A stretch of 60,041 bases of DNA from Sphingomonadales bacterium (GTDB lineage Bacteria; Pseudomonadota; Alphaproteobacteria; Sphingomonadales; Sphingomonadaceae): NCBI GenBank assembly GCA_027483465.1, contig JAIXUQ010000007.1, forward strand, positions 1 to 60,041, in the 5' to 3' direction. The notes under the pieces were generated by a model. It saw only the letters and a program-made list of their open reading frames with translations. It made no database searches and was not told where the DNA came from. Shown piece by piece: positions 1,401-23,263 of this stretch (positions are counted from its first letter, which is position 1; every line of letters begins with the position of its first letter). The position numbers and the translations under genes were made by a program.

Positions 1401-4400
1401 TCACCCAGCAAGCCGGGTTGTGGTCGGTCGCGGGGCCGAAGCTGTAAAGAACATGGCCGTGTATGGCTCCAACGCCTTTAGGCGATCGACCGTGCGCGCC
1501 TGATCAGCGGTCGGTCCAGTGTTCCGAGCGATCGTCCGTGCGTCCGTTTCAGTAACTCTTAGAACCAGGTAGCTGGCGATCGCTTCAAATAGCGCAGGGT
1601 CAAAGTCGCGCACACCCTGTGAAGCCAGGCCGAGCGCCAAGCCGTATTTGCGGCACTCCTTCGCTAAGCGAGGAATCAGCTTCAGCTTGGCGGCCCGGTG
1701 GGCTTCGTCAAAGATTACAGCGTGGGTCAGGCGGTCCTGTACGCCTCTTCGAAACATGTCCTTATAGATGTTGTAGAGCACGAATCCGGCAAAAGCCCGC
1801 TGTAGAATGTCGTTGGTGCTGAGATGGATACGCACCAAGATTGGACGCGCGTCTGCCAGCAGTCCGGAGCTATCGTCGCCGCCGTCAAAGAAACCATAGT
1901 CATCAAGCTCCTGAAGTCTGGCCAGTAGGTTCTGGTTTGGCTTCGGGCGAGCGCGCAGAATTTCGAGAAACCTTCTGAATGCAGGTGGTGCGGGTCGCTC
2001 TGCGTCGCGGCGGCCCCAACCAAGCTCGTCGTAGCTTTCGCGGATGGCAGCCCGCAGCTCTTCAAGTTGTATCTCGCCCAGATCAGGAAAGATTGAGCCA
2101 AAGATGTCACGAAGCGTACCGGCGACGTCGATGTGAGCTGTCGCGCCGGATGCGTCAACGCGCAGCGGATTGAAACCGAGTCCGTCGAAGTCGACAGTGC
2201 GGATCGGACCAACAACGGTCGCGAGCTTTTCGTCGATGTCATCGTGGTAAGAGAAGATGATGGGAGCGATGCCAGCATTTGTAAGCTGCTTGCAGATGTT
2301 CAGCAGCGCCGTCGTCTTTCCCATCCCAGGAAGACCGACGACCATGAGATGCGGATTCGACCGGATCGACAACTCCCAGTTGACAGGCGCGCCGGCCAGA
2401 GACTCTCCGAGGCCAATCTCGACAGTAGATAGCGATGTGCCCGAGTGGCCTTCCTCCGCCATTGGGACGCTTGGTTCTGTGTTCACATCCGCCAATGCCG
2501 CATTTGATTGGGTCCCCGCGCTCCGGTCATCTGCCGCAGCATCCTGATTGGCCACTTTGTCCAACGACTTTGGGGGATCAATTGGGCGTGCTTCGCCTTC
2601 ACTTTCGAGCACAGGCGACGGAGCGCGCAGTTGGCCGTCGCCACCTGAACCACCGTCGATTGAGAATGCTCCGTCGGGCAACATCGAAGGCCCAAACAGC
2701 CAGAGCCTCGCCTCGCCGCCGCTCTCTAAGTTGAGTGGCTCCGCGGAACCGGTCCGATGTTCCGGGCAGAAGACGTATCCAACATCCGGTATGTCGACGT
2801 CACCGGGTCGGTAGTTTTCTTTTAGCACAAGCTGGTCAGTTTCGCTTGAAAGCCTCGCGCGACCGCGTTCAGTTAAACGATGCCGTGCTGCGCGTTCGAT
2901 GTAGAAGCGTAGCAGCTTCGCTAGTTGCGAGCGGCGAACTACGCGTTCGAGCGGCGCCAGATCCTCTCCAAAGAACCACTGGTGCCAGCGACGCCTTAGT
3001 TCGCCCGTTTGCTCGACCATGTGCGCCAATAGGTCGGGTTGCCTGGCTGTACGCAGATGCTGCCGATGCTTCACCTCAACGAAGCGGAACTCGAGCGGGC
3101 CACGGGCCGGTGCGCTCACATGGATGAAGTCTGCGCGCAGGGCAGGCTCGCCGTCAGCCCCAGCCATTGTGACGATGGGCGCATTGCTCGCGATCTCGTC
3201 GACCGGAATAAGCAGGCCCTGCTCAAGCCCGAGCCAAGTCTCCATCTGCCCCTGTGCAGCGACGCAATTTGCGTGCATCAGTGCCAACGCAATGAGTTCG
3301 CCAGTTCGCGTGCCGCCGTCGGCCAAGCGAATTGCGAGTCTCCCACTCAGCGCCTTTAGGTGCCCCACCAAAAACCGACTATTCCGCTCGCTGCCGCTCA
3401 AGCCCATATCGGCCAAGGCCTGATCGACGAGATCGCGCACAGCATCGAGATTCGACGTGGACGTGACGAGCTGCATGGCGGTCAGATCAGAGCGATCGGG
3501 CACAGCGTCGATTACAAAACGCTCGTAAGTCTCCGCGTCCCGGCGGGGAGAGTCGAGATAATCGAGCACCGCATTCCGGTCTAAAGTGATGACCCAGTCG
3601 CTCTGTGCATGAAGGCGTTCGAGGCGCTGGCGATCCTGCGTCGAGAGGTGCGTCTGCAAGACGGGCCAATCGTCCGCGCTGCCTCCTAGAGCACGCGCAG
3701 TGGCTCGTGCAACCGCGCGATCCATCCGACGCAACCGGTCGCCCGCTATCTTTGCTTCGGGCGCAGATTCGCCCACCAGATCGGGCGGGGCGTAGCTGGT
3801 CCAGCAGAGCTCCTCGCCATCTGCAATGCGTTCAATCGCGCGTGTAAGGCCCCAACTGTGCAGCGGGCGCGCATCACCGAGGGATGCGGAAGGTACTGCT
3901 TCCAGACGCGAAGAGAACATATCAAACGCGAGGCTAAGATGCGTGGCGCCAGATCCCTTTCGTCCACCCTCTACTTCGAAATCAAATTCAGGACGCTTTG
4001 CCCATCGGAGCCGCGGGACCAAAACGCCTCCGGGTCGAACCGCCGTTTCGGTCATCCATCTGTCTTGGACGTCGAGCACCTGACCGCCGACCCTACGTCG
4101 TTGGCCTATGGTGGTAAGGAACCGGCCCGAGGCGACTGAATTGGGCGCGTGAAACAGGTCGAGCGTAAAGCACAAGGGAGACGTTTCGCCGTCCTCTTCG
4201 TCCCAATCCGCCTGCGATCGCAATGCCTTGCCCATCGCGCGCGCTACAGTCTGCCCGTCGCCCGCCCGCCACGCCTGAACACTGAGTACATCGGGACGGG
4301 CGTCGCTTGAGCCACCGTAGCAGTCAAGATAATGTCGGATCTCGCGTCCAATGGCGATGGCATTTTCGTCATCAGCAGACGAAGCAACATTGCGTCCGCC

Positions 4401-6395
4401 GCCTCCTAAACATGCGGAGAGCAGGGCTATGGCTGCCTTTGGCTCAGCCTCCCCCTCTACAGTCATCGCAACTACGTGGAACCCAAGCACGTCGGCGAAC
4501 AGATAGCCTCGGATGGCATCAGTGCCTGGAAGAGCGAAAGGAAAATAGGTTGAATCGATCGGCTGCGCGGCCTTGATCGCAGCGGATGGTGAAAGTCCTT
4601 GTTCGTACCGCGCATGGGCTACAGCTTGATCATAAAGGGCTTGCCAAGCGAACCGTGTAGGATGAAGCGGCGTTACGAGCAGTCCAATGACAGCTCCAGC
4701 CTGGTCACGGACTTCGATGGTGCCATGCAGAGCAATCGAAGGGTCTCCAGCTTCAAGCGCCTTCTCCCAAGCGTTGATATAACCGTCGGCGGCAGGCCAG
4801 CCATTGGTCAATATGCGTCCCAGGAGGCCCGCAGAACCTACTTCGCTCGCGAGTTTGCGGCACGCTTCGCGCACGCGGTCCAGCAGAGGGTTTTCACCGT
4901 CGTCGAGGACAACTAGCTCAAGCTCACCGATTGGCGACCCATCGGCTCGCACCACCTGAACCCAGCGGCTGACCGGCCCGCCTGCGCGCTGCCACGCTTC
5001 TTCCATTTGCCGCAGCAGCGATGGACGAAATACTCGAGCGCCGCGCCCGCCGACCTCTCCGTTCCAGTTGATGAAGCCTTTCTTGTCTTCAGCGGGTCGT
5101 GACGAAGCGACCAGCTCTTCGAACCGCGATCTGTCCGGCGCACTTATCGCGCCTTCAACGAGGGTCCGCACCAGCTGCCCTGACGCGGCTGACAGATCCT
5201 TTGTTGTGGTCCCAAACTCGATTGAGAACTGTTCGCTTAGTATCGGCTCGACATCCTCCAAGCCAATCGCTGATATTTGGACAAGAGCTTCGAATTTCTC
5301 ATCGCCTTCAAGGTCTTCGAAGCTCTCTATACCGATCGCCACTTGCTGCTGAGGCTTGTCGCGATGTGGGACCGTGAGTTCGACCAGAACATCTTCACCG
5401 GCGGTAACTGTGACGCGATAATCAACGGCTCCACCAGGAATATCATCTGGCTCGGTGGTCCAGCGGACAACGAGTTGCGCTCTGTCCTTCATGGCAGCGT
5501 TGCGGTCGAGAACGAGACGCGGGATCTGGTCCGCCGCCTCCGGTTTGGTCAGGCCAGACCATTTAAGCAGCGAGTTTTTGCTGTCGCGCCACGGCACCAG
5601 TGTGAGGTGTCGCAGGCTTTGGCTGGCAAAGCCAGGTGTCAATGGTCCCAGCCAAAGATCAGGTTCTGTCGCGATCGCGTCTGCTGCCGCTTCAGGACTT
5701 TTGCCGGTCAGCGAACGTAGCAGACGTTCAAGCTTGGGTTGCTGGACGGACGCGTCATCAAGGAGCAGAGAGCGAACTCGTTCGGCCACCGACCGGAAGT
5801 CGGCAGCGTAGAGAAGTCGGTCGGCGAGGTCTGCTGATAAGTCTAGCTGCGCATTTGTTGGCGTCCCCTCGCATGCCACGGGCCAAAGCCCCAACTTTCC
5901 CAGCGCCCGACCTTCGCCCTCGCTGGCGGCAGTCACGGTGAAGTCGAACCGTGACCATGGGGTCAGCCGTCGGCGGCGACCGAGCCGTTCGGCGCGACGC
6001 ACGGCGGCATCCAGAAACTGCATGCGACCCCAGAATGGCTTGCGCGCAAGCTCAAGCGCCTTGCCAAAAAGTTCAGCCTCGCCAATCTCCCGACCAGCGC
6101 TGTAGATGCCGTCCAAACCAGCACCAGCCCGAGAAGGGTCAATGAGAAGCAGTGCCGCTCCGGTCTTGTCCTCGCGCTGCTCAACAGCCTGATCGGCTGT
6201 GATCCGCCGGTCACCAACGACATCGACAACGGCCGCAATTGTCCAACCTGGAACAGAGAACTCGTCGTACGCAATCAACGAGTCGACTTGATCTGACGGA
6301 AGACATCGTACGAAGGCAACAGTGCCGTCCAATGGCTCGCCCAGCAACTTGCCCAATGCCTCGGCCAACAGCGCGGCGTGTTTGGGACCGATCAT
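1401..6395 (-). CDS. MAD8-like large ATP-binding defence protein (HerA/FtsK-type ATPase C-terminus)
   Basis: This 1664-aa protein is the last gene of a three-gene operon and overlaps the gene before it by ATGA. The C-terminal third is a HerA/DUF87-like ATPase: Walker A GLPGMGKTT with Lys1360, Walker B VIFDEAH with Asp1563-Glu1564. A possible PD-(D/E)xK nuclease core lies around residues 1085-1125, with FVEVKHR (Glu1107, Lys1109) preceded by a candidate Asp. Residues 1-1000 are not recognisable by eye. Length, position and the C-terminal ATPase fit MAD8, the ATP-binding component of the methylation-associated defence system (MADS). HerA-type proteins are DNA-translocating hexamers, often paired with nucleases. 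The alternative is a BREX/Pgl-related or unnamed HerA-nuclease system. Confidence 0.65.
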   Translation of the reverse strand: MIGPKHAALLAEALGKLLGEPLDGTVAFVRCLPSDQVDSLIAYDEFSVPGWTIAAVVDVVGDRRITADQAVEQREDKTGAALLLIDPSRAGAGLDGIYSAGREIGEAELFGKALELARKPFWGRMQFLDAAVRRAERLGRRRRLTPWSRFDFTVTAASEGEGRALGKLGLWPVACEGTPTNAQLDLSADLADRLLYAADFRSVAERVRSLLLDDASVQQPKLERLLRSLTGKSPEAAADAIATEPDLWLGPLTPGFASQSLRHLTLVPWRDSKNSLLKWSGLTKPEAADQIPRLVLDRNAAMKDRAQLVVRWTTEPDDIPGGAVDYRVTVTAGEDVLVELTVPHRDKPQQQVAIGIESFEDLEGDEKFEALVQISAIGLEDVEPILSEQFSIEFGTTTKDLSAASGQLVRTLVEGAISAPDRSRFEELVASSRPAEDKKGFINWNGEVGGRGARVFRPSLLRQMEEAWQRAGGPVSRWVQVVRADGSPIGELELVVLDDGENPLLDRVREACRKLASEVGSAGLLGRILTNGWPAADGYINAWEKALEAGDPSIALHGTIEVRDQAGAVIGLLVTPLHPTRFAWQALYDQAVAHARYEQGLSPSAAIKAAQPIDSTYFPFALPGTDAIRGYLFADVLGFHVVAMTVEGEAEPKAAIALLSACLGGGGRNVASSADDENAIAIGREIRHYLDCYGGSSDARPDVLSVQAWRAGDGQTVARAMGKALRSQADWDEEDGETSPLCFTLDLFHAPNSVASGRFLTTIGQRRRVGGQVLDVQDRWMTETAVRPGGVLVPRLRWAKRPEFDFEVEGGRKGSGATHLSLAFDMFSSRLEAVPSASLGDARPLHSWGLTRAIERIADGEELCWTSYAPPDLVGESAPEAKIAGDRLRRMDRAVARATARALGGSADDWPVLQTHLSTQDRQRLERLHAQSDWVITLDRNAVLDYLDSPRRDAETYERFVIDAVPDRSDLTAMQLVTSTSNLDAVRDLVDQALADMGLSGSERNSRFLVGHLKALSGRLAIRLADGGTRTGELIALALMHANCVAAQGQMETWLGLEQGLLIPVDEIASNAPIVTMAGADGEPALRADFIHVSAPARGPLEFRFVEVKHRQHLRTARQPDLLAHMVEQTGELRRRWHQWFFGEDLAPLERVVRRSQLAKLLRFYIERAARHRLTERGRARLSSETDQLVLKENYRPGDVDIPDVGYVFCPEHRTGSAEPLNLESGGEARLWLFGPSMLPDGAFSIDGGSGGDGQLRAPSPVLESEGEARPIDPPKSLDKVANQDAAADDRSAGTQSNAALADVNTEPSVPMAEEGHSGTSLSTVEIGLGESLAGAPVNWELSIRSNPHLMVVGLPGMGKTTALLNICKQLTNAGIAPIIFSYHDDIDEKLATVVGPIRTVDFDGLGFNPLRVDASGATAHIDVAGTLRDIFGSIFPDLGEIQLEELRAAIRESYDELGWGRRDAERPAPPAFRRFLEILRARPKPNQNLLARLQELDDYGFFDGGDDSSGLLADARPILVRIHLSTNDILQRAFAGFVLYNIYKDMFRRGVQDRLTHAVIFDEAHRAAKLKLIPRLAKECRKYGLALGLASQGVRDFDPALFEAIASYLVLRVTETDARTIARNTGPTADQARTVDRLKALEPYTAMFFTASAPRPTTTRLAG

Positions 6396-8218
6396 GCTAG
6401 CTCGCTCCCGCCGGTGAGAAGCTCTTCTGGCATGCCATAGCGCGGTTTCAGCTTTTTCATTCTCTCGGCGTCGTTGACGCCCGTCAGCAAACCAAGGTCG
6501 CGAAGGCGCCGTTCCAACACTCGCCGGTTGCTCTGAAGTAGCTCGCTTGGAACTTGCATATTGGGTGGAGAGCGGTCGACAAACAACCCGTGCCGCTCGC
6601 GAAGAATGCGAAGAAAATCCGGGTACGAGAGCAGCCTAAGCTTCTTTCCTTTGCCGGTCCGCCGCAGGTGCCGATGGACAAGATATTCGAGCATGGCATT
6701 GGTCAGCACGATCGATAGCGCATCGCCGGTCCTCTTCTGACCCTTGCTGCGTGCTCGGTTCAGCGTCACCTTCCGACGTCTCGCGAGCCCGTTCACTTCG
6801 TCCGTCATGAGCGCTGAAGTGAGAAAGCTGTTCAGCCGCTCGACCCCGCGATTAGAGGTTATGGTGAAGGACGTGCTGAGCACTTCGGCTAAAAAGCGGC
6901 CATGGCTCTCGACCTCGCCTTCTTCGCCGAGCAGATCGAGCAGTCCACCCTCCTCTTGATCTTGGGCCGCCGCCCGCAACTTGCGTGTGATCGAGCGGAA
7001 GTGCTTCTCGGCGTCCCGGGCTTCATCGTGCGACCGGTTGAGAAAGCTGCCGAGAAGATTAAGCCAATCCGTCCCATCCGGCATGCTTGCGGGCCTCGAT
7101 TTGGCCGGAATGTCTGACTCGTGCGTCACAAAGTAATCGATCAGGCGCGCATACATTAGAATGGCAGGCAACCTGTTCAGCGACTGCCGGAGAAGTCCGC
7201 TCGATACCTCAGACGCATCGCGAAGCCCGACGTCCGCTCCGTTTGAGCAGTCGACAAACAGCGGGAACGGGGAAGCTGCATCGCGCGCAGGCACCAAGCC
7301 ATCCGTTCCCCAGCGCGTGAGTATATCTACAGTGGATGTGACAATCGTTGTAAGGCCAATCGCCATAGCGGACTCGAGCATGGTTAGCAGGGCCGACCGC
7401 GGACAAGCGCCCTCGTGCGCATAGCAATCGAGGAAGGTCAGCAAGTCCTCGCGTAAGTCGTCGCTAGCCTTGGCAGCGATGGGCCGTTGATTGGGGATTG
7501 GACCTGGATTGCCCTTACCTACAGCTTTGCTGGGTGCCTCACCGCAGATCTGAGCGAGCCGGATCGTTATGAGCTGATCGAGTGGCAGAGGTAGAGTCTC
7601 ATCCAGTTCGTCTGAGCGGAGATCGCTTTTGCGCGAGCCGGATGTGATGATCCCAGGCCCCAGCGCTTTAAGGAGCGCGTTGTCCTCGACCCGGGTTCCC
7701 ACTGGATACTTGCCCGAGCTAGTGAATGGTTCGATATGGGCACCATCCTTCTGATTGCTTAGAAGCGCGGTAATCATCTCCGGGACGCCGCGCAGATTGG
7801 CAGCCGAAATCGGCAGATCAATCCACGAAGCTAAATAGTGATTGGCGAAGCACCTTTGCACCTGTTCTTCATGCGACTCAGAATGCCGTCTGTTTTCGAG
7901 TGTAGACGTAAGAAGGAAATCGCCGAGAATCGCCTTTTCTGTATCACTCTCAAAACCCTGAAGTGTTGGTTCCTCAGCGAGACGTGCCGCTACCGATCTG
8001 ATCGTTGGCTGTGATCCTGAGCCGAATGCTTCCGTAAAACGTCCTTTGCCGCGCCGGTGGCCCCAGCGAAACAGGTAGAGGACCATCGGCAAGAGCGCCC
8101 CGACTGAGAAGTCCTGAGGGGTGAACGGGAAGACCGGCTGATATGTACTCGTCCAAATCTGCGACGTCATGTGGCCGCCGATGACATCTTCGATGACCTT
8201 CTTCGCTCCAGCAGCCAT
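6392..8218 (-). CDS. MAD7-like protein of unknown function
   Basis: This 608-aa soluble protein is encoded between the kinase gene (TAATG overlap at 8218) and the HerA-type gene (ATGA overlap at 6392), so all three are probably translated together. No Walker, nuclease, methyltransferase or zinc motif is visible. The C-terminal third is Arg/Lys-rich and contains a segment resembling a winged-helix or DNA-binding region (LLSYPDFLRILRERHG). Size and order match MAD7 of MADS, which has no well-defined domain in my recollection. If correct, it acts with the kinase and ATPase as an adaptor or sensor; that is inference from gene order only. Confidence 0.6.
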   Translation of the reverse strand: MAAGAKKVIEDVIGGHMTSQIWTSTYQPVFPFTPQDFSVGALLPMVLYLFRWGHRRGKGRFTEAFGSGSQPTIRSVAARLAEEPTLQGFESDTEKAILGDFLLTSTLENRRHSESHEEQVQRCFANHYLASWIDLPISAANLRGVPEMITALLSNQKDGAHIEPFTSSGKYPVGTRVEDNALLKALGPGIITSGSRKSDLRSDELDETLPLPLDQLITIRLAQICGEAPSKAVGKGNPGPIPNQRPIAAKASDDLREDLLTFLDCYAHEGACPRSALLTMLESAMAIGLTTIVTSTVDILTRWGTDGLVPARDAASPFPLFVDCSNGADVGLRDASEVSSGLLRQSLNRLPAILMYARLIDYFVTHESDIPAKSRPASMPDGTDWLNLLGSFLNRSHDEARDAEKHFRSITRKLRAAAQDQEEGGLLDLLGEEGEVESHGRFLAEVLSTSFTITSNRGVERLNSFLTSALMTDEVNGLARRRKVTLNRARSKGQKRTGDALSIVLTNAMLEYLVHRHLRRTGKGKKLRLLSYPDFLRILRERHGLFVDRSPPNMQVPSELLQSNRRVLERRLRDLGLLTGVNDAERMKKLKPRYGMPEELLTGGSELA

Positions 8219-11200
8219 TACACCCTTCCTTCGGTGAGAACGATGATCTGACGGTCGCGATCTTGCTCGACGCTCAATCGATGCACAGTGTCGCCAGCGG
8301 CCGGGTTCCAGGCACGGAGTGCGCGCTCGTCCTCTTGGGCCAGTCGACGCGTGAACACGCTGAGGTTCGCAAAGATATCATCTGAGAAGGCGTCCAAAAC
8401 CTGCACGCCATCAGCGAGTTCCATGAGCAAAGTGTACAGCTCTAATGATACAATCAGCTCTTCTGGTGCCCCATGCAACATGTCGTAACTGAGCACTAGG
8501 TAGCGATGCAGCGTCTCCAACCCTTCCACGGATTGGAAGCGCTCGGCAGCGAGACTGAAGCGCGCTAGCGGCTTCTCAACCCAGAATGCGGTCTCTGTCG
8601 GTGTTCGCGGTACAATTCTGATAGGCACGATCTCGGCGTTACGATACGCCGGCTCAGGCAACGCCTCTAGTCGGGAAAGGCCGGCGCAAAGCTGAGCCTT
8701 CAATTCTTCCTGCGCTTGTGGCGCAAGTAGCGGAAACGATCGAAAATCGGTCGAATGTCGACCGTCACGCAAACTCAGGGCGAACTCGTCACCGCCAATC
8801 GCTTGGACCTGGTGCGGCGTCCAAGCAAAATAGGCGCGGCGGCGCGCTTGGCGCAAGTGCAAGGGCTGACCCAATACGTCACGGAAGCGAGGGGCGCCAT
8901 GAGCAGGATCGGGAGCGCCACGCGCAACTAGATAGCGGTCAACTCTGGCGTTGACATGGAGAGCCGGGTCGAGTCGGGCCAGCTCGCGCAGGAGTTCGCC
9001 TTGCCGATTGGGGGATTCGGGATCGAAAGCGTAATCTGCGGGATCATGCAGTTCGAGATCGGGATTACCGTGAATGTCCTCGCAGGAGTGGAGCCCGAAT
9101 AGCACATAGCTAATCGTCGCTTTCAGCTCGCGTGCGGTGATATGCACCTCGTTCCTCAGGTGTACGGCTTGCAGTGCTTCGGTTAACCGTCCCTTGAGAA
9201 GGTTACCGCGAGCTAGGACTGAGGCGTCATCGCTCGCGCCCATCATATCGGCGGAGCGCCGCATAGGGCACCGTTCGCGCGCGGTGCAGGTCCGGCAGGG
9301 GCGCCAGATATCCGGTGCCTGTTCGCCACCGACTAGGCGATCAATCATTTTGTCCACGAACTCTGTTGAGATCGTTCCGAGGTCGATTCTCATGCCTCCC
9401 ACAAGCGACCGATTGTTCAGTTCGACGAGCCGGATATGCTCGGGCAGCTGGTCACTCCCGTCACTGAGCGCATCCATCAGAGCTGCGGTCAACAGTGTCG
9501 CCCCGCCTCTGACGCTCTCGGCGTGGTCGATCCATTCCATAAGTCGCCCGTCGTTTACCGCAACAAGGTGTACCAGCGGACTTTTGGGCGGTCCGTCGAG
9601 AAAGGGGCCAAAGAGATCGTCGAGTAACTCATTCGCGGAGCGGCCGTTCCAGCTGGCAGCTCCATCGAGATTGATCTTGGAAGGCCGACCAGCCAATTGG
9701 CCTTCCCAGACTCGCTGGCTAGATGGTGCCGATGCTCCACCCAGCGAGCTGACTAGATTCTGCAGAAATGCTGTCTTGCCGTCGCCAGCGTTGCCGCAAA
9801 GGATTGCCAGGGACACCTTTCCTAAGCGGATGGCTTCAGGCAGTGCGGTATCGAGCTCAGTTCGAACATATGTGTCGAAAGCAAATTTGGTATCAAGGCC
9901 ACGCGTTTCAGCGTTTCCGAACCGAGAGCCAGGATAGGCGCTTAGAATATCCTTCACCCGATCAATGACATTGGGTCGGAGGATTTCAAGGTCCGGAGGC
10001 GTCGGTGCGGCAGTAGCGCCAGATGCCGAAGCCTTTCTGGCGAGCAACCAGTGCAATGCATCTGCGGCGTCACGAAACCGCATCTCAGGGTCTTGCGCCA
10101 TTGCTTTGTTTAGGAGGGCGGTTAGCGTGGGCCACTTGATCTGCTCTTCGGCTTGCCAAGGCAAACCGGACGGGCCGACCGCTGCAGGCGGCACTCGATC
10201 CGTGACTATGTGAAAAAAGGTGGCACCGAGGCTGTAGAGGTCATCACGTGGCAGGGCAGGTTTGCCCTCGCAACGTTCAGGCGATGCATAGAGAGTGGTG
10301 CCCGGGGACGCTGGCACATTGCCCGAGGCGCCTGCTAGGTCATAATCAATCAAAACGACGCGGTGCTCGTCGACCAAAACGTTGGAAGGGCTCACATCAC
10401 CGTGCAGCCATCCCTGAGCATGAAGGACCTGAAGGGCGTCGCACAGATCGCCGAACCAGCGAAGCGCGAGCTCTTCCACGCTATCGTCGCCTGCCTCGTC
10501 GGCGAGGAAGTCGAGGTCGCCTCGCCATGCGTCAAGCGGGGAACCTTGGACCCAACGCAGCAGTGCCATCAACTCGGAAGGTCGCCATTCGCTGCTGCAT
10601 GCTAAGACGTTTGACAACCCGTCATGTTGAGTGAGCGGGCGTAATCGTCGGTAAGCGTCCAATGATGTAGGACCGATCTCTTCATTGAAAACGACCTTGC
10701 CGACGTAGGTCCCGATCGGCTCGTCCCCCTTTCCCAACTGTTCGAGCTTGAACGTTTTTCCCGCGCCGCCCTGGCCAAGGACTGACAGAACCCGATAGCG
10801 GTCACCCTTCCACTCGGTGATGTAGCCCTCGTCCCATAACGCGGGAGACGGCGTAGTCTCAGTTTGGGGCAAGGCTGCCGCAGGCTCCAAATCGGCAAGT
10901 AGATCAACGAACTCTTGGGCGGTTGGACGTACTGAGGGATCGTGCGCGAGACCCATCTCTAGTAGCTCGACCATCTCCTCCGCCTCGGGCGACGCCTCAA
11001 GGAGCACCTTGCATAGGCTGAACACGTCTGACGCAGGGGTGGCTGCGGCCAGGCCGCCGCTTGTGACTTCGGGCGCGGCATAATCGCCGATCTCGTCCAC
11101 CGCATCGCCGCTGACTGTTTGTGCAGGTGCAAGGCGAGCCCAACGCCATCCGGCGAAGAGTGGCGCTCCATCAACTCGCATACGGACGCAGTTGTCGTCG

Positions 11201-12177
11201 ATTGCCCGGTGAATGAGTGGAGGATCGCCGGGCTCTGCTCCCTCGGCAAATTCAGCGAGAGCGGCGAAGGCCCGCCGCGCAAAGTCGAGGCCACGCGCCG
11301 AAGACCAGGCTCCCGATCGCACCAATTCGGCCACAGACTGAGCGGAACTGTCCGCGAGGCTAAAGAAATACACCTCGCCAGCGTAATTTGGGAGCGGCTG
11401 CCAACTATCTACCAAACTCGGAAGATGGCGCGATTTCTGGAATTTTCGAACTACATCGAACTCGCGTCGGGCGCGCCGCTCTGTACGCTCTGCGGCCTCT
11501 CCATCGGGTGCTGCCGACAGGTCGTAGAGGTGCACTGTCACCCGATCACCGTTCCAAGGGTCGCGGGCGGCATAGACCCGAGCGAAGCGTTCATGCTCTG
11601 GGGTCAGGAGCTGCAAACCATCAAATCTTCCAATGCGCTTAGGGCGTGCCGGATTGATTGCTGCCTGGCGTGGTGCGAGCATACCAGCTAATCGGCCTGG
11701 GTCAGCACGCCCAGGCGCCGTTGCTTCTGCAATCAAGGCGTCAACGTCTTTGAGTGAATATGTTTTTACGCCGAAGGAATGTTGAGCTTGTTTTCCGTTT
11801 CGTTTCAGCGACCCTACTTCTCGGGTGAATAGGAAAACAGCTGGAACAAACCCGATATTAGGTTCGGCAGCTTTGAGGCGGCCAGCGACACGCTTTGCCT
11901 TAGCAACGATGAGCTCGGCAGCTGCATCCGCATCCAATTGGCGCTTTAGCGCCGAACCGTCCCAGTGCTTGACCTCGATCACGACTGCGCCGCTGGGACC
12001 GATCACTACCATGTCGATCTCGTCAGCTTGGCCATGGGGATTCGGGTGAGTGAGGTTGGTTAGGACGTAAGCGGTCCCATCACGTTCGACGCGCCTGATC
12101 GCCTGATCTACAGCGTGGAATGCCCTTGCCTCGCTCGCATTAGCGAACGCTCCGCAAGGCAGATGCACGACGCGCAC
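8218..12177 (-). CDS. MAD6/PglW-like NERD-kinase-ATPase defence protein
   Basis: This 1319-aa protein is the first gene of the defence operon, with a GTG start at 12177 behind GAGGGGGAT. Domains in order: an NERD nuclease-like domain at about 1-115 (Asp55, Glu68-Val-Lys70); a degenerate kinase-like domain at about 185-430, whose catalytic loop reads HRAIDDN and lacks the catalytic Asp; a second kinase domain at about 455-715 with intact features (glycine loop GQGGAGKTF, Lys494, HGDVSPSN with Asp594, DYD at 611-613); and a P-loop domain with GNAGDGKT (Lys801) plus a Cys cluster (961, 964, 970). NERD plus Ser/Thr kinase is typical of BREX PglW and MAD6. The order with the two downstream genes favours MAD6. 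About 260 bases upstream separate it from the ParB-like gene. Confidence 0.7.
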   Translation of the reverse strand: MRVVHLPCGAFANASEARAFHAVDQAIRRVERDGTAYVLTNLTHPNPHGQADEIDMVVIGPSGAVVIEVKHWDGSALKRQLDADAAAELIVAKAKRVAGRLKAAEPNIGFVPAVFLFTREVGSLKRNGKQAQHSFGVKTYSLKDVDALIAEATAPGRADPGRLAGMLAPRQAAINPARPKRIGRFDGLQLLTPEHERFARVYAARDPWNGDRVTVHLYDLSAAPDGEAAERTERRARREFDVVRKFQKSRHLPSLVDSWQPLPNYAGEVYFFSLADSSAQSVAELVRSGAWSSARGLDFARRAFAALAEFAEGAEPGDPPLIHRAIDDNCVRMRVDGAPLFAGWRWARLAPAQTVSGDAVDEIGDYAAPEVTSGGLAAATPASDVFSLCKVLLEASPEAEEMVELLEMGLAHDPSVRPTAQEFVDLLADLEPAAALPQTETTPSPALWDEGYITEWKGDRYRVLSVLGQGGAGKTFKLEQLGKGDEPIGTYVGKVVFNEEIGPTSLDAYRRLRPLTQHDGLSNVLACSSEWRPSELMALLRWVQGSPLDAWRGDLDFLADEAGDDSVEELALRWFGDLCDALQVLHAQGWLHGDVSPSNVLVDEHRVVLIDYDLAGASGNVPASPGTTLYASPERCEGKPALPRDDLYSLGATFFHIVTDRVPPAAVGPSGLPWQAEEQIKWPTLTALLNKAMAQDPEMRFRDAADALHWLLARKASASGATAAPTPPDLEILRPNVIDRVKDILSAYPGSRFGNAETRGLDTKFAFDTYVRTELDTALPEAIRLGKVSLAILCGNAGDGKTAFLQNLVSSLGGASAPSSQRVWEGQLAGRPSKINLDGAASWNGRSANELLDDLFGPFLDGPPKSPLVHLVAVNDGRLMEWIDHAESVRGGATLLTAALMDALSDGSDQLPEHIRLVELNNRSLVGGMRIDLGTISTEFVDKMIDRLVGGEQAPDIWRPCRTCTARERCPMRRSADMMGASDDASVLARGNLLKGRLTEALQAVHLRNEVHITARELKATISYVLFGLHSCEDIHGNPDLELHDPADYAFDPESPNRQGELLRELARLDPALHVNARVDRYLVARGAPDPAHGAPRFRDVLGQPLHLRQARRRAYFAWTPHQVQAIGGDEFALSLRDGRHSTDFRSFPLLAPQAQEELKAQLCAGLSRLEALPEPAYRNAEIVPIRIVPRTPTETAFWVEKPLARFSLAAERFQSVEGLETLHRYLVLSYDMLHGAPEELIVSLELYTLLMELADGVQVLDAFSDDIFANLSVFTRRLAQEDERALRAWNPAAGDTVHRLSVEQDRDRQIIVLTEGRV

Positions 12178-12437: not shown

Positions 12438-13394
12438 CTATCCTATGTCGGCAGAAATCGATCCGATCGTCTCGATCTCCGCGATGCGCTGAAACTCGGA
12501 AAGATATTCCTGCCGATGATTCGACAGCCAGCGAACCACCCGAGCGTTGCTAAGCAGCTTCGCGACATAACCGCGCGCAAAGGTGAGGTGAAGATTGTCG
12601 ATCCCGTAGCTGTCTTCGACCGACTTTACCTGCGTCTGGAGAGTGGCGAGCTCCCGCTCCATCCGGGAAATCTGCTGGCTGGTCGGACCCGCTAGATCAT
12701 TCTTGCGCGCCTTCTTCGCTGGCGCTGCCAACTGATCTTCGGGGGTGGCCGCAAGAAGCGCGCGTGCGAAGATCAGCGAGTAATTGTTCTGGCCGATCAT
12801 CAGGTCCGCTGCCTCGATCTGGCGCATTGGCGACATGCGGCGCAGCATGTCGAAGACCCGCATCGAGCAATTGGTGTCCTTGAGCATGTCCGCAGTCTCT
12901 TCGCAGATGCCGTCTAGCAGGCGGAACCGCGCACGGATTGATCCTACCTCCAGGCCGAGCGCGTCGGCGATAACGGCCTCGATGACACCGCGCTCGATGG
13001 CGCGCACGATCATCCGGTGCTCCTGGATCGGCGGCAGGCGATTGACGCGCTTGTTGTAGGTGTAGGTCTCGTCATCATTGGCGACGAGACACTCAACCGT
13101 ATCGATGCCGAGCTGCTTCAGGACTTCGATCCGCAAATGGCCGTCGAGCAGAAAGTATTGCTCTGCATTCTTCGGGTTGGGGACGACGGCAGGGGCTTCG
13201 ACCAACCCGATGGCTTTGATCGAGCTCACGATCTGGGCATATTTGCGGCTCTCCCGCACGCCCTCGCGCAATGCTTTAAGGGGTACGATCTGGTCGATGC
13301 GCACTGTTACAGTCTGGCGTTCGAAGCCTAGGCGGACACGATTGTCGGCGCCGGGATCTGCGGGCTGGCGTTCTGCTGATGGCCATTCAGTCAT
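12438..13394 (-). CDS. ParB/RepB-type DNA-binding protein (second of pair)
   Basis: This 318-aa protein starts at MTEWPSAERQ (13394), with its start inside the end of the upstream ParB gene (8-base overlap). The N-terminal part has the ParB-like fold region with LLDGHLRIEVLKQLG, which corresponds to the GxxR box but is less canonical than its neighbour. A helical middle (NRLPPIQEHRMIVRAIERG) and a coiled-coil-like segment (ISRMERELATLQTQVKSV) follow, resembling the RepB plasmid-partition C-terminal domain. It is the last gene of a recombinase-ParB-ParB operon. No parA/repA ATPase is nearby, so classical plasmid partition is unlikely. A role in regulating or assisting the recombinase is plausible but inferred. 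Confidence 0.7.
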   Translation of the reverse strand: MTEWPSAERQPADPGADNRVRLGFERQTVTVRIDQIVPLKALREGVRESRKYAQIVSSIKAIGLVEAPAVVPNPKNAEQYFLLDGHLRIEVLKQLGIDTVECLVANDDETYTYNKRVNRLPPIQEHRMIVRAIERGVIEAVIADALGLEVGSIRARFRLLDGICEETADMLKDTNCSMRVFDMLRRMSPMRQIEAADLMIGQNNYSLIFARALLAATPEDQLAAPAKKARKNDLAGPTSQQISRMERELATLQTQVKSVEDSYGIDNLHLTFARGYVAKLLSNARVVRWLSNHRQEYLSEFQRIAEIETIGSISADIG

Positions 13395-14286
13395 CAGTTT
13401 CCCCCGCGATCCGCATGGCCAGCGCCCGGGGCATCGTCTCAAGCCCTTCGGCCCTCAGCAGGGTCAGAAACCCGTCGTCCGTGAGCAAATCCTTGATTGC
13501 CTCGACAATGAACAGAAGACGGGTTTGGGTGAAATCCGACTTCTTCACGAGCAGACGCTGCTTTTCGGCCTCGCGCTGGTAAACCTGCATCAGGTCGCTG
13601 GCGGTCAGCTTGCGGGTGGAGCCCTTCCGCCCAAACTTCCCCGCCGATATAGACTTGCTGCGCCCACGCATGCGGAGGTCGAGGAGCCGACGAACCGAAG
13701 CCAGCTTCTTCCCTCTCAGCTTGCCGGTTTCGTAGGCTTCGAGCAGCAGGTTTTGCGCCTCTTCGCTTTCGGCGCGCGAGATCTCCATCGCAAGACTGAT
13801 CGGGATCAGCCCCGTCTCGACCGCTGACAGCAGCCGTTCCTCGCCGCGCTCGAGCAGGGTCACGATCATGCTGACCCACCCACTGGTGATGCCGATTTTG
13901 CGGGAAATCTCGGCTTCGGTGTAACCGCGTTTCCTCAGTGCCCCGATCTCGTTCATGACATCGATCGGACGCTGCACCCGGCGGGCAATGTTCTCCACCA
14001 GGCTCATGACGAGGCATTCGCTCTCGCTCGCTTCGATCACGACCGCCGGTATCTCGGTCTGACCCAGCATCTGGAAAGCCTCAAGCCGCCCTTCGCCGCA
14101 GACCAGATCGTAGCGCGTGCCGCCCGGACCATCATGCTTGCTGACCGTGATCGGACGCTTGAGGCCGATGGTCTCGATATTGTTGACGATCTCGCGGTGC
14201 TGACGCTTGTTGCGCGCCCGGGGGTTGAGCACGGTGATCCGCGAAATCGGGATCATCTCGATGGTCTGGGGACGGGTAACGGTCAT
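13387..14286 (-). CDS. ParB/RepB/Spo0J-family protein (first of pair)
   Basis: This 299-aa protein has its ATG at 14286 overlapping the recombinase stop (TGATG). It shows the ParB N-terminal nuclease/CTPase-like domain with VCGEGRLEAFQMLG and LVENIARRVQRP, then a helix-turn-helix (AEISRKIGITSGWVSMIV), then an RepB-type helical C-terminus. In plasmid systems these proteins bind centromere-like sites and slide on DNA. Here it lies between a large serine recombinase and a second ParB-like gene, with no ParA. I recall recombinase-RepB-RepB trios being common in alphaproteobacterial islands with no assigned job. Confidence 0.75.
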   Translation of the reverse strand: MTVTRPQTIEMIPISRITVLNPRARNKRQHREIVNNIETIGLKRPITVSKHDGPGGTRYDLVCGEGRLEAFQMLGQTEIPAVVIEASESECLVMSLVENIARRVQRPIDVMNEIGALRKRGYTEAEISRKIGITSGWVSMIVTLLERGEERLLSAVETGLIPISLAMEISRAESEEAQNLLLEAYETGKLRGKKLASVRRLLDLRMRGRSKSISAGKFGRKGSTRKLTASDLMQVYQREAEKQRLLVKKSDFTQTRLLFIVEAIKDLLTDDGFLTLLRAEGLETMPRALAMRIAGETDD

Positions 14287-15935
14287 CAGGCAGCCTCCGC
14301 AACACTGACGGGCGCCGCGATCTCGTAGAAGAAATCGAGGGCGTCGAACCGGTAGGCATCGAGCAGCAGGTCGTTGTCCTCGGCGAGCCGCACCCGTTCG
14401 GCCGCAACATCCAGCCTCGGGAAGAGATAGTAGTCGAAGGGCTGCCGGTTGCTGGCGTCCATGCGGACCACGAGGGTGATGTCCGGCATCTTCGAGGTGT
14501 CGAAGCGGATCTTCCAGCGCAGCAGTCCCGTCGGCGTGGGCGTGCAACGGACGATGACGACGGACAGGCTGAACTCATCGTTCACGATGACCCGGTCAGT
14601 CTCCAGATCCTGCCATGCTTCACTGCCCTGCGCTTTCAGGCCTTCGAGGACTTCGCGAAGAATGTCCGGGTGCAGTCGGCGCAGCGCACGATTGACAGCG
14701 AGGTAGCGATAGTCGCGATCCGGCGAATAGCCGACCAGGCTGTAGGCCCGCAGCAAGCTGCCAAACCGCGACGAATAGGCGCTGCTGGAGGGCAGGCCCT
14801 CACATTCGTCGATGATGATCCCCGAGAGCAGGCCCTTGCTTTCATAAACCGTGCGCAGCGCGTCGATCATTTCGGCATCTGAGAGCCTGAAGGACCGCGC
14901 GCCGATGAGCGCCTGCGCGGCATCGAACAGGTCGCGCTCGACGATGGCTTCGAACGCGCCGGGGCTGCGTATCCACATTTCGGGGTCGTTGCGGACCCGC
15001 TTCTTCTTCAGCTTGAACGACTGCCGGTTCCACACATTGTCGCCGACATACTTGCCGTTGATTAGGAGCTGATGGACCGTGCCGCGCGTCCATCGCCGCC
15101 CCAGATCGGTGACAATGCCCCGGCTGTTAAGGTCATCGGCGATTTCGCGCTCGCTCAGCCCGTCATGGACGAAAGCGGCGTAGACGCTGCGGACGATGGC
15201 GATTTCCTCATCCGGCCCCGGCGTCAAAATCACCCGATCGGTCTGGATGCTCTTGTGCTCGCCTCGCGTGAGCACGCCTTTGGTCGTGCCTGTTTCATCG
15301 ATCAAGGTCCGGCGAAGCCCGAACCCGGCAGGTCCGCCCTGGCGGTATCCTTTCTCGATCAACCGTCCCTGCCCGGCGAAGACCTTGGTCGACAGCTCCC
15401 GGCTGTACTCCCCGGCCATCGCGCGCTTGACGCCTTTCACGATGGTTGAGACCGGGCTGCCGTCATTCTCGAACTGCTCTGCGCAATATTGAACCGCGAT
15501 CCCGGCGCGCTTGCAGATGTACTCGTAGTAGGCGCTTTCATCCGCGTCCTGGAACCGGCCCCAGCGGCTGATGTCGTATACCAAGACCATAGTGTAGTCG
15601 GCGGCACCGGTCTGGACGTCATCGATCAACTGCTTGAGTGCGTCGCGGCCTTCGATCTTCAGCCCGCTTTTGCCCGCATCGGCATAGGTCCGCACGATCT
15701 CGATCCCACGTGCCGCGGCATAATGCCGGATCGCATCGGCCTGATTCTCGGTCGAGTATTTCTGGTGATCAGTCGACATGCGAACATACTCGGCCGCGCG
15801 CACGAGCCGCGGAGCCTGTTCCCTGCTGTCACTGTCGTCGTAGCCCCAATCCTTCAATTTCCGCCCTTTCGATGACGATGCTGCCGTGGCCAGGGCGACC
15901 AACCGCTGCAGCGTGAACCACGGACACTCCGCCAT
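14286..15935 (-). CDS. Large serine recombinase
   Basis: This 549-aa protein starts, as annotated, at MAECPWFTLQ. A longer start at 15995 would overlap the divergent gene, and the true start may lie even further downstream because family members usually begin shortly before the catalytic motif. The resolvase/invertase domain has the nucleophile motif YVRMSTDHQ (Ser54), followed by SGLKIEGRDALKQL and a recombinase domain. The usual CxxC zinc ribbon of large serine integrases is missing; the C-terminal part is instead a helical extension. Family members cut and join DNA at att sites through a serine phosphodiester. It is co-transcribed with two ParB-like genes and may be the integrase of a nested element. 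Confidence 0.85.
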   Translation of the reverse strand: MAECPWFTLQRLVALATAASSSKGRKLKDWGYDDSDSREQAPRLVRAAEYVRMSTDHQKYSTENQADAIRHYAAARGIEIVRTYADAGKSGLKIEGRDALKQLIDDVQTGAADYTMVLVYDISRWGRFQDADESAYYEYICKRAGIAVQYCAEQFENDGSPVSTIVKGVKRAMAGEYSRELSTKVFAGQGRLIEKGYRQGGPAGFGLRRTLIDETGTTKGVLTRGEHKSIQTDRVILTPGPDEEIAIVRSVYAAFVHDGLSEREIADDLNSRGIVTDLGRRWTRGTVHQLLINGKYVGDNVWNRQSFKLKKKRVRNDPEMWIRSPGAFEAIVERDLFDAAQALIGARSFRLSDAEMIDALRTVYESKGLLSGIIIDECEGLPSSSAYSSRFGSLLRAYSLVGYSPDRDYRYLAVNRALRRLHPDILREVLEGLKAQGSEAWQDLETDRVIVNDEFSLSVVIVRCTPTPTGLLRWKIRFDTSKMPDITLVVRMDASNRQPFDYYLFPRLDVAAERVRLAEDNDLLLDAYRFDALDFFYEIAAPVSVAEAA

Positions 15936-15975
15936 CCCCGCACTTTCACCAGTGTAGGCCGGAGAGGAGCGGAAG

Positions 15976-16590
15976 ATGTTGCCGAAAAAGGGCAAGAAGT
16001 TGCCGAAGTGGGAAGGAGTCCTGGCTGGAAGACAGGCCTATGCCGAAACCATCGCCCAGCTATTGGAGCGGGAGCACGGCGAAACGCACCGCGCGGTCAA
16101 GCAAGTGATGAAGCTGACTGACGCCAGCGAGCGGACCGTCAAGCACTGGCTATCGGGACAGCACGGTCCCGATACTGTCTTCTTTCTGCGCCTTTTGACG
16201 AGCTCACCAGTCATCAGAGCGTTTGTGATCGGGCTTATCGAAAGCTCTCAGGGGGCGGGCCATGATCGGCATGGAGCGGACCAACAAGCTGCTCGCCGAT
16301 CATCAAAAACGCCCGATACGCAGCCGCCACGGCAGGATCGGCGTCAGAATGACCGCATAAATGACCCTAAAACTGACCCTATAAATGACCCAATAACTGG
16401 CGAGATGAACGAGCGGCAGAGCTGGTTTCTCGCCCGAGTCGCAGCGGGCCATCGGTGCCGCGCGGCGGACATTTGTGACCACTGGAAGGTCAGTGCGAAA
16501 ACTGCGCGACGGGACATCGCAGCGCTCACCGATATGGGCTTGATCCGCTTCACGGGTGCGCGCCGCAATGGACGCTACCGACCGGCCTGA
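15976..16590 (+). CDS. HTH DNA-binding regulator, divergent from the recombinase
   Basis: This 204-aa protein begins MLPKKGKKLPKWEG after a GAGAGGAG ribosome-binding site, divergent from the recombinase operon. Residues about 20-75 hold a helix-turn-helix (LTDASERTVKHWLSG). Residues 140-204 hold a DeoR-like winged helix (RAADICDHWKVSAKTARRDIAAL). They are joined by a low-complexity linker with repeated NDPxTDPINDP units encoded by imperfect DNA repeats. In another frame at 16262 there is a short ORF beginning MIGMERTNKLL, so the linker could mark an old fusion or frameshift of two genes. It probably controls the divergent recombinase/ParB operon. Confidence 0.6.
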   Translation: MLPKKGKKLPKWEGVLAGRQAYAETIAQLLEREHGETHRAVKQVMKLTDASERTVKHWLSGQHGPDTVFFLRLLTSSPVIRAFVIGLIESSQGAGHDRHGADQQAARRSSKTPDTQPPRQDRRQNDRINDPKTDPINDPITGEMNERQSWFLARVAAGHRCRAADICDHWKVSAKTARRDIAALTDMGLIRFTGARRNGRYRPA

Positions 16591-16732
16591 GGATCCGCAT
16601 AGACCGGGGCGATCGCCGAGCTTGGCAGTAGCGCCCGATCCGATATCCAATCGATGCCAAGCCTATGGTGGACGCCGGGCAATGCAAAAGTGGAGAGGGA
16701 GGGGGGTGTCGAACCCAGCAAAGGAGATCGAC

Positions 16733-17461
16733 ATGCCTCTCTATCCCATCGATATCGAAAAGCGCCTCAAGGCCCTGCAGCGCCAGGCACGGCACGAGGC
16801 GGAAGGCGCGCCCTACGTTATCTATGCCCTTCTCGATCCTGGTGAGCCCGGCCTGCAGTTTGCAGAGGGTCCGTTCAACGGTATCCCGTTCTATGTCGGG
16901 CAAAGCTGCGAAATCGAGTGTCGACTGGGTCGGCATTTCCGAAAATCGCAGAAGCTCAACCCGGATTCCCAAATGGTCCATCGGCACATAGCGCGATTGT
17001 TCGCGATCGGCAGACTGCCGCGGCTTGCCATTCTCGAGACGGCCCAGACGCGCAGCCAAAGCCTGATGGCTGAATTGCGGTGGGGGCAGCGCCTGATGCG
17101 CGACGGGTATGAGCTGGCGAACACCAGCCCGGATATTGGCCGGATCATGGGTGTCGAAGAATTGACTGCCTGGCTGGATTTCCGTCGGTCATCGATGCTC
17201 GCCAGCGAGGCAGCACGGGAAGGGATCGTCATTGTTCACACCTGCACATGTGGACATGTGAACAGGTGGATCGACCCGGCGGACTATGTGGCGTGTTGGC
17301 CAAAGCGGTTGCGGGTCTCGAAAATCGCCAGTCGAACACAGCAATGCCCCGGCTGCGGCGAGGATTGCGAATGGTGGCTGGATGATCGCGAACTGCTCGC
17401 TTCGAGGTTTGGCCCAAGCTACCTGAATACCTGTTCCAGCTTGGCCTTGCGTCGCGCATGA
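16733..17461 (+). CDS. GIY-YIG-like nuclease with C-terminal zinc-binding motifs
   Basis: This 242-aa protein has its start fixed by AAGGAG in front of MPLYPIDIEKRL; the upstream 59 codons look like non-coding read-through. Residues 27-56 read YVIYALL...FYVG, matching the GIY-YIG core. Arg64 (RLGRH) and Glu114 (AELRWGQ) are at suitable distances for the conserved Arg and metal-binding Glu. The C-terminal part has CTC (171-173) and CPGC-x3-C (205-212), probably a zinc ribbon. Family members are single-strand-nicking endonucleases. The gene converges with the YgjP-like gene and overlaps its 3' end by 43 bases. Confidence 0.55.
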   Translation: MPLYPIDIEKRLKALQRQARHEAEGAPYVIYALLDPGEPGLQFAEGPFNGIPFYVGQSCEIECRLGRHFRKSQKLNPDSQMVHRHIARLFAIGRLPRLAILETAQTRSQSLMAELRWGQRLMRDGYELANTSPDIGRIMGVEELTAWLDFRRSSMLASEAAREGIVIVHTCTCGHVNRWIDPADYVACWPKRLRVSKIASRTQQCPGCGEDCEWWLDDRELLASRFGPSYLNTCSSLALRRA

Positions 17462-18129
17462 TCGGGCATCAGCTTCCCTAGCAGGTGGGCAAACTCCGGC
17501 CCGTGATTTGGGTGTGGGAGGTGGCAAAGCTCGTGGGTGATCACATAGTCGATCAGTGGCACCGGCACTTGCACCAGAACATGGTTGAGCACGAGGCTAT
17601 GCGACGCTGGAACATAGCTTCCCCAGCGACGCTCCATTTCGACGATCTTCAGCTTGGGGCGCTTGAAGTCGGAAACAAATGGCTGAATGCAAGCCGATAA
17701 TCGTTCGGAGAAGATGCGGTAGCCCTGAAGCTCATACCAGCGCACCAGGCGATTTCGAATCCTGCTCGGTTCATCTGAAGCCACGCCGCCAACAATGATT
17801 CGATCGTCCTCGCGGCGGGTGCCTTGTGCCTCCGGATCAACCCGCAATCGGTATTGGCGGCCGAGAAAATAGTGGGTTTCACCAGGGATGTATCGGCGAG
17901 GGGGCAAGGGCGGCGTGCGCAAGACAGACTCATCGACCTTGTCGAGGATCCATGAGGCTCGCTTGCGCAGAATGGCTTCGATCTGGCTTGCTTCGGCTGC
18001 CTCAGGGGCTGTGACCACAACGCTGCCGTCGGGCTTTACAGAGATTCCCAAGGTCTTTCGCGCAGATCTGCGGAGCGTGTAGTCGAACGCTTCCGTGCCG
18101 ATCTCCAATCGCCCGGACACTTGGGTCAT
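17419..18129 (-). CDS. YgjP-like (DUF45/SprT-type) zinc metallopeptidase of the R-M operon
   Basis: This 236-aa protein carries HELCH (His199, Glu200, His203) followed by His209, the zinc site of the YgjP/M48-like metal-dependent hydrolase family, and the family signature ERRWGSY at 167-172. The start overlaps the hsdR stop, so it is the last gene of the type I restriction operon. Such genes are very often found directly after hsdR; their contribution is unknown, with proteolysis of a restriction subunit a common guess. The 3' end overlaps the convergent GIY-YIG gene. Confidence 0.85.
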   Translation of the reverse strand: MTQVSGRLEIGTEAFDYTLRRSARKTLGISVKPDGSVVVTAPEAAEASQIEAILRKRASWILDKVDESVLRTPPLPPRRYIPGETHYFLGRQYRLRVDPEAQGTRREDDRIIVGGVASDEPSRIRNRLVRWYELQGYRIFSERLSACIQPFVSDFKRPKLKIVEMERRWGSYVPASHSLVLNHVLVQVPVPLIDYVITHELCHLPHPNHGPEFAHLLGKLMPDHARRKAKLEQVFR

Positions 18130-23016: not shown

Positions 23017-23263
23017 CGTCCTTCCCCTTGCGCTTGGGCTTCTTCTTCTCCGCCGCGATCCGCTTGGCCGCCTGCGTCGCCTCCAGAAAATGCTGCTCGA
23101 CCGCGCTGGGGGCGTGGAGTTCGGCACGAACCTTTGAGCGAAACTCAATAGTTCGATCCGTAAAATTCGCGGCCAGTTGAAGCGTGGCGAAGTTTTCGCG
23201 GGCAACGTGTAAGGCTTGCTTACAAGTTGGGGTGCGCTGCTGCGGGGATACGTCAGCCAGCAT
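23009..23263 (-). CDS. Small basic hypothetical protein in the R-M operon
   Basis: This 84-aa protein starts at MLADVSPQQR, where AAGGA lies eight bases upstream; two in-frame ATGs at 23269 and 23272 are less well placed. The frame overlaps the end of the dinD-like gene and the start of hsdS. The body is predicted helical (CKQALHVARENFATLQLAANF) and ends in a Lys-rich tail (EKKKPKRKGK). The coupling suggests it is translated with HsdS. No family recognised. Confidence 0.55.
   Translation of the reverse strand: MLADVSPQQRTPTCKQALHVARENFATLQLAANFTDRTIEFRSKVRAELHAPSAVEQHFLEATQAAKRIAAEKKKPKRKGKDDV

Follow-up and report, generated by a model that had tools for sequence, protein, structure and literature searches.

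The 60,041-base window analysed here, the whole of one contig from a 3.58-Mb Sphingomonadales assembly that is 96% complete, carries on its minus strand three genes, called F, G and H below, which resemble MAD6, MAD7 and MAD8 of the MADS defence system and, more distantly, the restriction modules SspFGH and DndFGH (Table 1). Their open reading frames (ORFs) overlap by 1 nt (F/G) and 4 nt (G/H), and because the window is the whole contig, only 1.4 kb of sequence follows H. A sequence-only reading of this DNA had described the three overlapping genes and likened them to MAD6-7-8 in size and order. Both points were borne out, with five MADS loci encoding proteins of 1379-1407, 528-562 and 1804-1858 aa, respectively. 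Homologues of MAD6, MAD7 and MAD8 follow one another in that order in the window, with scores under the curated cut-offs (F, 141 bits against 460; G, 90 bits against 410). The operon was also correctly described as devoid of MAD1-5; RepB/ParB genes sit upstream of F instead.

Table 1. Genes of the operon and the domains assigned to their products
Feature	Position in window	Strand	Description
F	8218..12177	-	1319 aa, GTG start; MAD6/DndF-like, with NERD, pseudokinase, kinase and DndF-type P-loop core
NERD nuclease-related domain of F	11947..12114	-	residues 22-77; Pfam 37 bits
Pseudokinase of F	10858..11625	-	about residues 185-440; boundaries approximate, by inference
Active-type Ser/Thr kinase of F	10141..10797	-	residues 461-679; Pfam protein kinase 64 bits
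DndF/SspF-type P-loop core of F	8248..9945	-	about residues 745-1310; three conserved Cys; boundaries approximate
G	6392..8218	-	608-aa MAD7-like protein
H	1401..6395	-	1664-aa MAD8/DndH-like protein
PD-(D/E)XK-type nuclease region of H	2796..3278	-	about residues 1040-1200; boundaries approximate (putative)
HerA-type ATPase of H	1437..2414	-	about residues 1328-1653

Profile searches supported the proposed kinship, as F matched MADS6, G matched MADS7 and H matched MAD8, and the best matches of F to PglW were confined to its NERD and kinase parts. MADS6 was the best NCBIfam family for F, and among PADLOC families the kinase PD-T4-6 scored best (92 bits), ahead of MAD6 (78 bits) and SspF (54 bits over residues 773-1031). 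Direct comparison of F with MAD6 of the five MADS loci gave 229-367 bits, near full length in four of them and piecewise in the fifth (L099), and a profile comparison of the F core with one DndF scored 75.7% (E 2.4e-5). Conservation was counted over complete proteins only (55 F and 52 H), namely copies that align nearly end to end, so that the counts favour intact copies. All 55 F proteins retain the NERD residues D55, E68 and K70, the Walker A residues and the three cysteines; the kinase residues K494, D594 and D611 are each present in 53, and not one has Asp at the third HRD position of the pseudokinase. The idea that F is a new fusion of MAD6 with an SspF/DptF protein was ruled out, MAD6 of the MADS loci being equally long in architecture. 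Since MAD6 at that length aligns from NERD to P-loop core in four of the five loci, the fusion of these parts is no peculiarity of the window.

The C-terminal end of H matched DndH, MAD8 and HerA. Further upstream in the protein, a D...E-V-K set at residues 1089-1109 is invariant across four aligned H proteins and suggests, by our own reading of the motif, a PD-(D/E)XK nuclease. Within the 52 complete copies, D1089 and E1107 were each found in 50 and K1109 in 48, whereas the HerA Walker A and B motifs and Q1593 were present in all; we read Q1593 as suggestive of the sensor 1 glutamine of HerA/FtsK ATPases. A profile comparison with one DndH scored 96.5%, in an alignment that includes the DndH EVK motif, DptH (7es4) was matched at E 5.6e-12, and the MAD8 proteins of the five MADS loci at 135-203 bits. 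A structure model of residues 1-1200 reached a pLDDT (predicted local distance difference test) of 83.7 and a pTM (predicted template modelling score) of 0.67. Its top Foldseek matches include methyltransferase folds and beta-sandwiches, none at E<=0.001. The N-terminal part of DndH has been described as carrying helicase-like, beta-sandwich and inactive methylase domains (PMC10853773), and the modelled folds of H fit, and do not prove, inactive-methylase and sandwich domains of the DndH type. The motif [DNS]PP[YFW] was absent from 51 of the 52 H proteins, and in the single exception it lies at residue 1488, in the C-terminal part.

For G, a Pfam scan returned no match, and only one family was clear, the NCBIfam model MADS7, which covers it near full length. 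Profile comparison by hhalign gave 98.1% against one MAD7 over residues 199-600, 14% in a weak C-terminal match to a single SspG, and 0.3%, no detectable relation, against the single DndG tried. The structure model of G is confident (pLDDT 91, pTM 0.92) and had no PDB match at E<=0.001, so the fold gave no placement. Tandem G genes between a single F and a single H were seen in three related loci, with two copies in L035 (6290-9996; 94% identity), two in L047 (1385-4989; 51%) and four in L076 (2267-9996; 56-87%).

The distribution of the trio was surveyed by scanning 84,980 species genomes once with an alignment of H, which gave 77 loci from 318 pattern matches. Together with the window and two Rhizobium plasmids these make up 80 loci, two of which (L026 and L074) share one genome. 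As the survey follows peptide patterns of H, it samples the clade of the trio and not MADS. F, G and H stand in this order on one strand in 73 of the 80 loci, a level of conservation beyond chance. Of the seven loci without the full trio, four (L034, L041, L048 and L074) are apparently cut by contig ends, and in the other three (L075, L077 and L079) the start of H is seen without G or F. Of the 77 genome loci, two have no phylum; the other 75 are spread over 18 named phyla, with 35 belonging to Pseudomonadota. By sequence, the predicted equipment of two nuclease domains, kinase, P-loop core and translocase motor is retained across phyla. A scan of 385 genomes of the window's own class found H in two, the window's genome among them, so the trio is rare and patchy there. 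Among 600 stretches of viral contigs that matched the pattern, none encodes an H relative by this method.

Several loci depart from the simple three-gene arrangement. Single loci are interrupted (L054 and L078), which is not a clade-wide feature. In L026, UPF0175 and DUF3368 genes, which are toxin-antitoxin-like, lie between F and G (7371-8148 and 15828-18243), with pieces of a second H downstream, and L022 carries at the same F-G position a different insert to which no family could be assigned. A gene resembling a winged helix-turn-helix (wHTH) nucleotidyltransferase is found just upstream of H in eleven loci: L068 (8991-9978, matching Pfam NTP_transf_2), L027, L028, L033, L041, L071, L073, L075, L077, L079 and L081. 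It is placed between G and H in all eight of these in which G is visible, and in nine of the eleven (not L033 or L079) it is accompanied by a small partner gene that appears HEPN-like by eye only and has no Pfam match.

MADS loci served as comparison. The MADS7 model matched in seven of 398 genomes of the phylum: three above the cut-off, the window's genome, a second trio (genome G519, locus L094) and two weak matches that proved to be Ssp loci. Of the three above the cut-off, L091 and L092 are MADS loci in which genes resembling MAD2, MAD3 and MAD5 lie upstream, with a MAD4 match in L092 only. Three more loci came from plasmid records: in L097, MAD6 is preceded by a methylase and additional genes, and in L098 and L099 by a methylase and an S subunit only. 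A methylase and a specificity-type gene thus precede MAD6 in all five MADS loci; in L097 the latter carries the annotation hypothetical and matches the genes at the MAD5 position in L091 and L092. The third locus above the cut-off, the variant L093 (8907-19899), encodes an FGH set whose F is without NERD and kinase part; a MAD2-like methylase gene and a MAD5-like S gene separate its G from its H. In the Bacteroides MADS-like locus L099, a PP2C phosphatase gene directly follows MAD8 (21106-21771), a possible counterpart to the MAD6 kinase.

Phylogenetic trees were built from 33 of the 55 complete F and 25 of the 52 complete H proteins, hand-picked for spread, together with five MADS rows, L093 and, for F only, two Ssp rows and one Dnd row. 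In the F-core tree (42 rows), the 33 trio rows lie on one side of a branch (support 95/89) and the five MADS rows on one side of another (98/95); the kinase-less L093 groups with MADS (96/79), and the Dnd and Ssp rows sit on very long branches and are of unsure placement. For H, a tree of residues 440-1215 (31 rows) from a short search places the 25 trio rows in one group, with a value of 100 in the Shimodaira-Hasegawa-like approximate likelihood ratio test (SH-aLRT), set against MADS and L093, which are not resolved from each other. Because the trio forms its own group on both trees, it does not represent scattered losses from MADS. The sequence-only reading had offered a reduced MADS as one option. 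In that case MAD1-5 would have been lost, and the remainder would be decaying or persisting on residual function. The homology and order of MAD6-7-8 agree with such an origin; the separate grouping on both trees, the spread across at least 18 phyla and the near-complete conservation of active-site residues in complete copies speak against it, and we regard it as very improbable. On these sequence comparisons, the trio is a separate lineage and not a decayed MADS.

We then considered what adjoins the trio, using neighbour ORFs from a simple longest-ORF caller. In 40 loci, 3 kb or more of sequence could be read upstream of an intact F, and 51 loci offered 1 kb or more past an intact H; a flank of 1 kb or longer was available on one side or both in 67 of the 80. 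The MADS arrangement, a methylase and S pair directly upstream of F, occurred in none of the available flanks of these 67 loci. On two MADS loci used as controls, a MAD2 seed scored 883-969 bits and a MAD5 seed 244-281 bits, compared with maxima of 67 and 20 bits in the flanks of the trio, both downstream in L043; a MAD3 seed scored 24-39 bits in L021 and L040, on genes of the opposite strand that lie 5-8 kb downstream. The sequence-only reading would have been contradicted had the closest homologues always lain within complete MAD1-8 loci. This is not the case, as the relatives are without MAD1-5 as far as the flanks reach. A conserved neighbour gene was likewise rejected, as few neighbours recur: the largest cluster of neighbour ORFs (seven loci) is a small gene within the operon, and the largest outside it comprise five of the 80 loci each, one HsdM-like (window included) and one without an assigned family. 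One nearest ORF per side was also taken (130 aa or longer and no farther than 4.5 kb away; n=102, not counting the window), and among the 25 of 102 matched families that are listed for these there were at least two N6_N4_Mtase, two N6_Mtase, five ResIII and three integrase matches.

Taken together, we consider it probable that the trio is a stand-alone restriction complex of the FGH type that attacks invading DNA and has no modification module linked to it, akin to MAD6-7-8 and more distantly to SspFGH and DndFGH. What the sequences show is the gene order, the homology, the conserved active-site residues and, as far as the flanks could be read, no modification gene that is regularly linked to the trio. 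That the trio forms a complex, translocates on DNA and nicks it is suggested by analogy with published Dnd and Ssp experiments, and its activity against phage or DNA is a prediction from sequence and from these analogies. In such a machine, the HerA motor of H would scan and translocate on DNA, which its PD-(D/E)XK domain would cut or nick, and G would act as an adaptor or DNA-reading subunit. F would be sensor and switch: it would combine a core that binds nucleotides with a pair of kinase domains, one active and one a pseudokinase, and with a NERD nuclease that may serve as a second effector. The conserved kinase-pseudokinase pair is a plausible switch, and F might keep the complex off until infection and so replace the missing DNA mark. 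Self DNA could be spared in two ways, by a resident methylase that marks it or by a default-off machine that an infection signal sets free; the latter is our preferred hypothesis.

Several observations weigh against a stand-alone complex. SspFGH and DndFGH harm cells that lack the mark, so a stand-alone FGH would need some hypothetical safety mechanism. Strict joint action is also at odds with a review according to which single dndF, dndG or dndH deletions never fully abolished restriction (PMC12707154). The kinase residues of F are altered in two of 55 proteins at each of the three positions, and the nuclease residues of H differ in two to four of 52. DNA-methylase candidates lie within 3 kb of the trio in nine of the 80 loci, on the same strand in L004, L013, L015, L017 and L020, and L035 also has a 122-aa fragment similar to the ISP enzyme of L005. 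Finally, an N6_Mtase match was found in all 13 host genomes tested.

The methylase findings bear on a different explanation, in which an unlinked methylase of the host or the island sets a methylation mark in trans for the trio to read. The trio would then be a modification-dependent restriction complex that resembles MADS, with an exchangeable partner. The island itself offers a candidate 6-14 kb upstream, a type I restriction-modification cassette (17419-25720) in the order YgjP-HsdR-(145 aa)-HsdS-BRO-HsdM. Its HsdS and HsdM, 10-14 kb upstream, are the methylase and specificity genes nearest to F, and none adjoins it. Beyond this cassette, near an integrase, are four tandem 22-nt repeat-like units (26474-26561), possibly the end of an insertion sequence. 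Pairing of FGH with a methylase and an S-type gene in MADS and L093, the same-strand methylases of five loci and the N6_Mtase matches in all 13 genomes would fit a mark in trans. So would L009 (Novosphingobium fuchskuhlense), where a related cassette, YgjP-HsdR-HsdS-HsdM, stands beside the trio (581 bits for HsdM, 526 for HsdR and 354 for HsdS). Co-occurrence with a type I system, raised as a question in the sequence-only reading, extends to one other locus; the HsdM-like cluster comprises only five of the 80. No methylase family is common to the neighbourhoods, where at least four methylase matches were counted among the 102 nearest ORFs, and nearby methylases vary in family and side, with opposite-strand candidates in L029, L040, L043 and L061. 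(The L015 candidate is based on similarity to L013, those of L040 and L043 on seed and motif only, and that of L061 is weak.) As the nearby candidates are few and of several families, no partner is obligate by linkage, and occasional recruitment of a methylase by the trio is possible. Counting N6_Mtase genes as a way of deciding host methylation was dropped as uninformative, since all 13 genomes have some (only this methylase family was counted). The Bosea genome (L007) has a single weak N6_Mtase match (E 2e-4; only this methylase family counted), which tells against a mark in trans. In the window's own genome, N6_Mtase was matched six times, on five contigs, and three of these matches are HsdM-like; the MAD2 seed scored 21-24 bits on two HsdM-like genes of the six. 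MAD5 was not found there in a search without positive control, so that, in an assembly 96% complete, its absence is likely and not certain. Overall, a mark supplied in trans seems to us conceivable and rather doubtful.

Transfer of DNA, or the maintenance of replicons, might be the target rather than phages, since HerA could meet DNA during conjugation. A HerA/FtsK capture model in print (PMC10853773) lends itself to this view, and directly upstream of F, by about 260 bp and on the same strand, are a serine recombinase and two RepB/ParB genes (12438-15995). Moreover, G was found in two of 72,556 plasmid records, and both are Rhizobium plasmids classed as conjugative. Three Sinorhizobium plasmids have partial matches, which cover only about 100-120 residues of H and are perhaps relics. 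However, relatives of the recombinase and RepB/ParB genes were found in none of the available flanks of the other 79 loci, so that co-occurrence of the trio with a recombinase-ParB-ParB set, asked about in the sequence-only reading, was not seen there beyond the window. In addition, SspFGH (PMC8092258) and DndFGH (PMC11662687) are anti-phage by experiment, and MADS by the title of its paper. We therefore judge plasmids or replicon maintenance an unlikely target.

Returning to the stand-alone complex, a more specific version can be offered tentatively. The trio may be an ancient restriction machine, independent of any DNA mark, in which the pseudokinase-kinase of F senses infection and frees a translocating nuclease by phosphorylation; MADS would be its methylase-using relative, and G, which occurs in tandem in L035, L047 and L076, an exchangeable targeting subunit. 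More broadly, a widespread lineage that keeps the enzymatic parts, mostly without adjoining marking genes, makes the self/non-self question directly testable: how does an FGH machine, in many phyla, spare its own chromosome without the DNA-marking half beside it? The trio also ties MADS to the better studied Dnd and Ssp restriction modules.

With MADS, whose mode of restriction was still called unknown in a 2026 review (PMC12904381), the trio shares gene order, similar sizes and the architecture of F, G and H; it differs in being without MAD1-5, in standing apart on the F and H trees and in scoring below the curated MAD6 and MAD7 cut-offs. PglW of type 2 BREX has the same order of NERD, pseudokinase and kinase (PMC12839542), whereas the C-terminal half of F is a DndF-type core and the likeness to PglW is best in the NERD and kinase parts. 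SspFGH, all three genes of which are required, damages unmodified DNA and acts against phage (PMC8092258). It has in common with the trio the F-G-H order, a Walker A motif in F and an FtsK/HerA-like end of H, and sequence similarity is weak (19-31 bits for F; 13 bits for H, to one of two). The two SspF proteins, at 606-635 aa, are too short for NERD and kinases, and the two Ssp loci adjoin SspA, SspB or SspC genes, none of which was named among the window neighbours scanned (other loci were not searched). The same Pfam scan of window neighbours named no phosphorothioate genes, and the DndC family, not found in the window's genome, is likely but not certainly absent from it, given an assembly 96% complete; SspBCD were not searched for across that genome.

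The closest description in print is that of DndFGH, a 2:2:1 complex with translocation-coupled nicking (PMC11662687) in which, as in Ssp, a DNA mark protects self DNA and FGH harms cells without it (PMC8092258, PMC11662687). DndFGH has been reported to be commonly decoupled from its modification module and was called a stand-alone counter-invader system (Rakesh, Aravind & Krishnan 2024, PMC10853773). Some DndF proteins carry NERD and tandem inactive and active kinases in front, which a 2026 paper by two of the same authors repeats for comparison with PglW (PMC12839542). Neither paper uses the term MADS in its main text, and among the papers found, leaving aside what the MADS paper itself states on MAD6-8, neither a link between MADS and Dnd nor the trio clade was reported. 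Like these DndFGH systems, the trio is a three-gene operon, often without a linked modification module, with the same domain order in F (a P-loop core preceded by NERD, an inactive and an active kinase) and, in H, a putative restriction endonuclease domain followed by a HerA/FtsK ATPase with Q at the presumed sensor 1. DndG is described as having three winged HTH domains in 450-500 residues (PMC10853773), and G is longer. The idea of a stand-alone module thus held in that the trio has no linked MAD1-5, although the broader kind had been published before, as stand-alone DndFGH systems of which a subset has a NERD-kinase DndF. Comparison with that work, made by its description and not by its protein set, suggests that what is new here is the relation to MADS and the separate clade formed by the trio.

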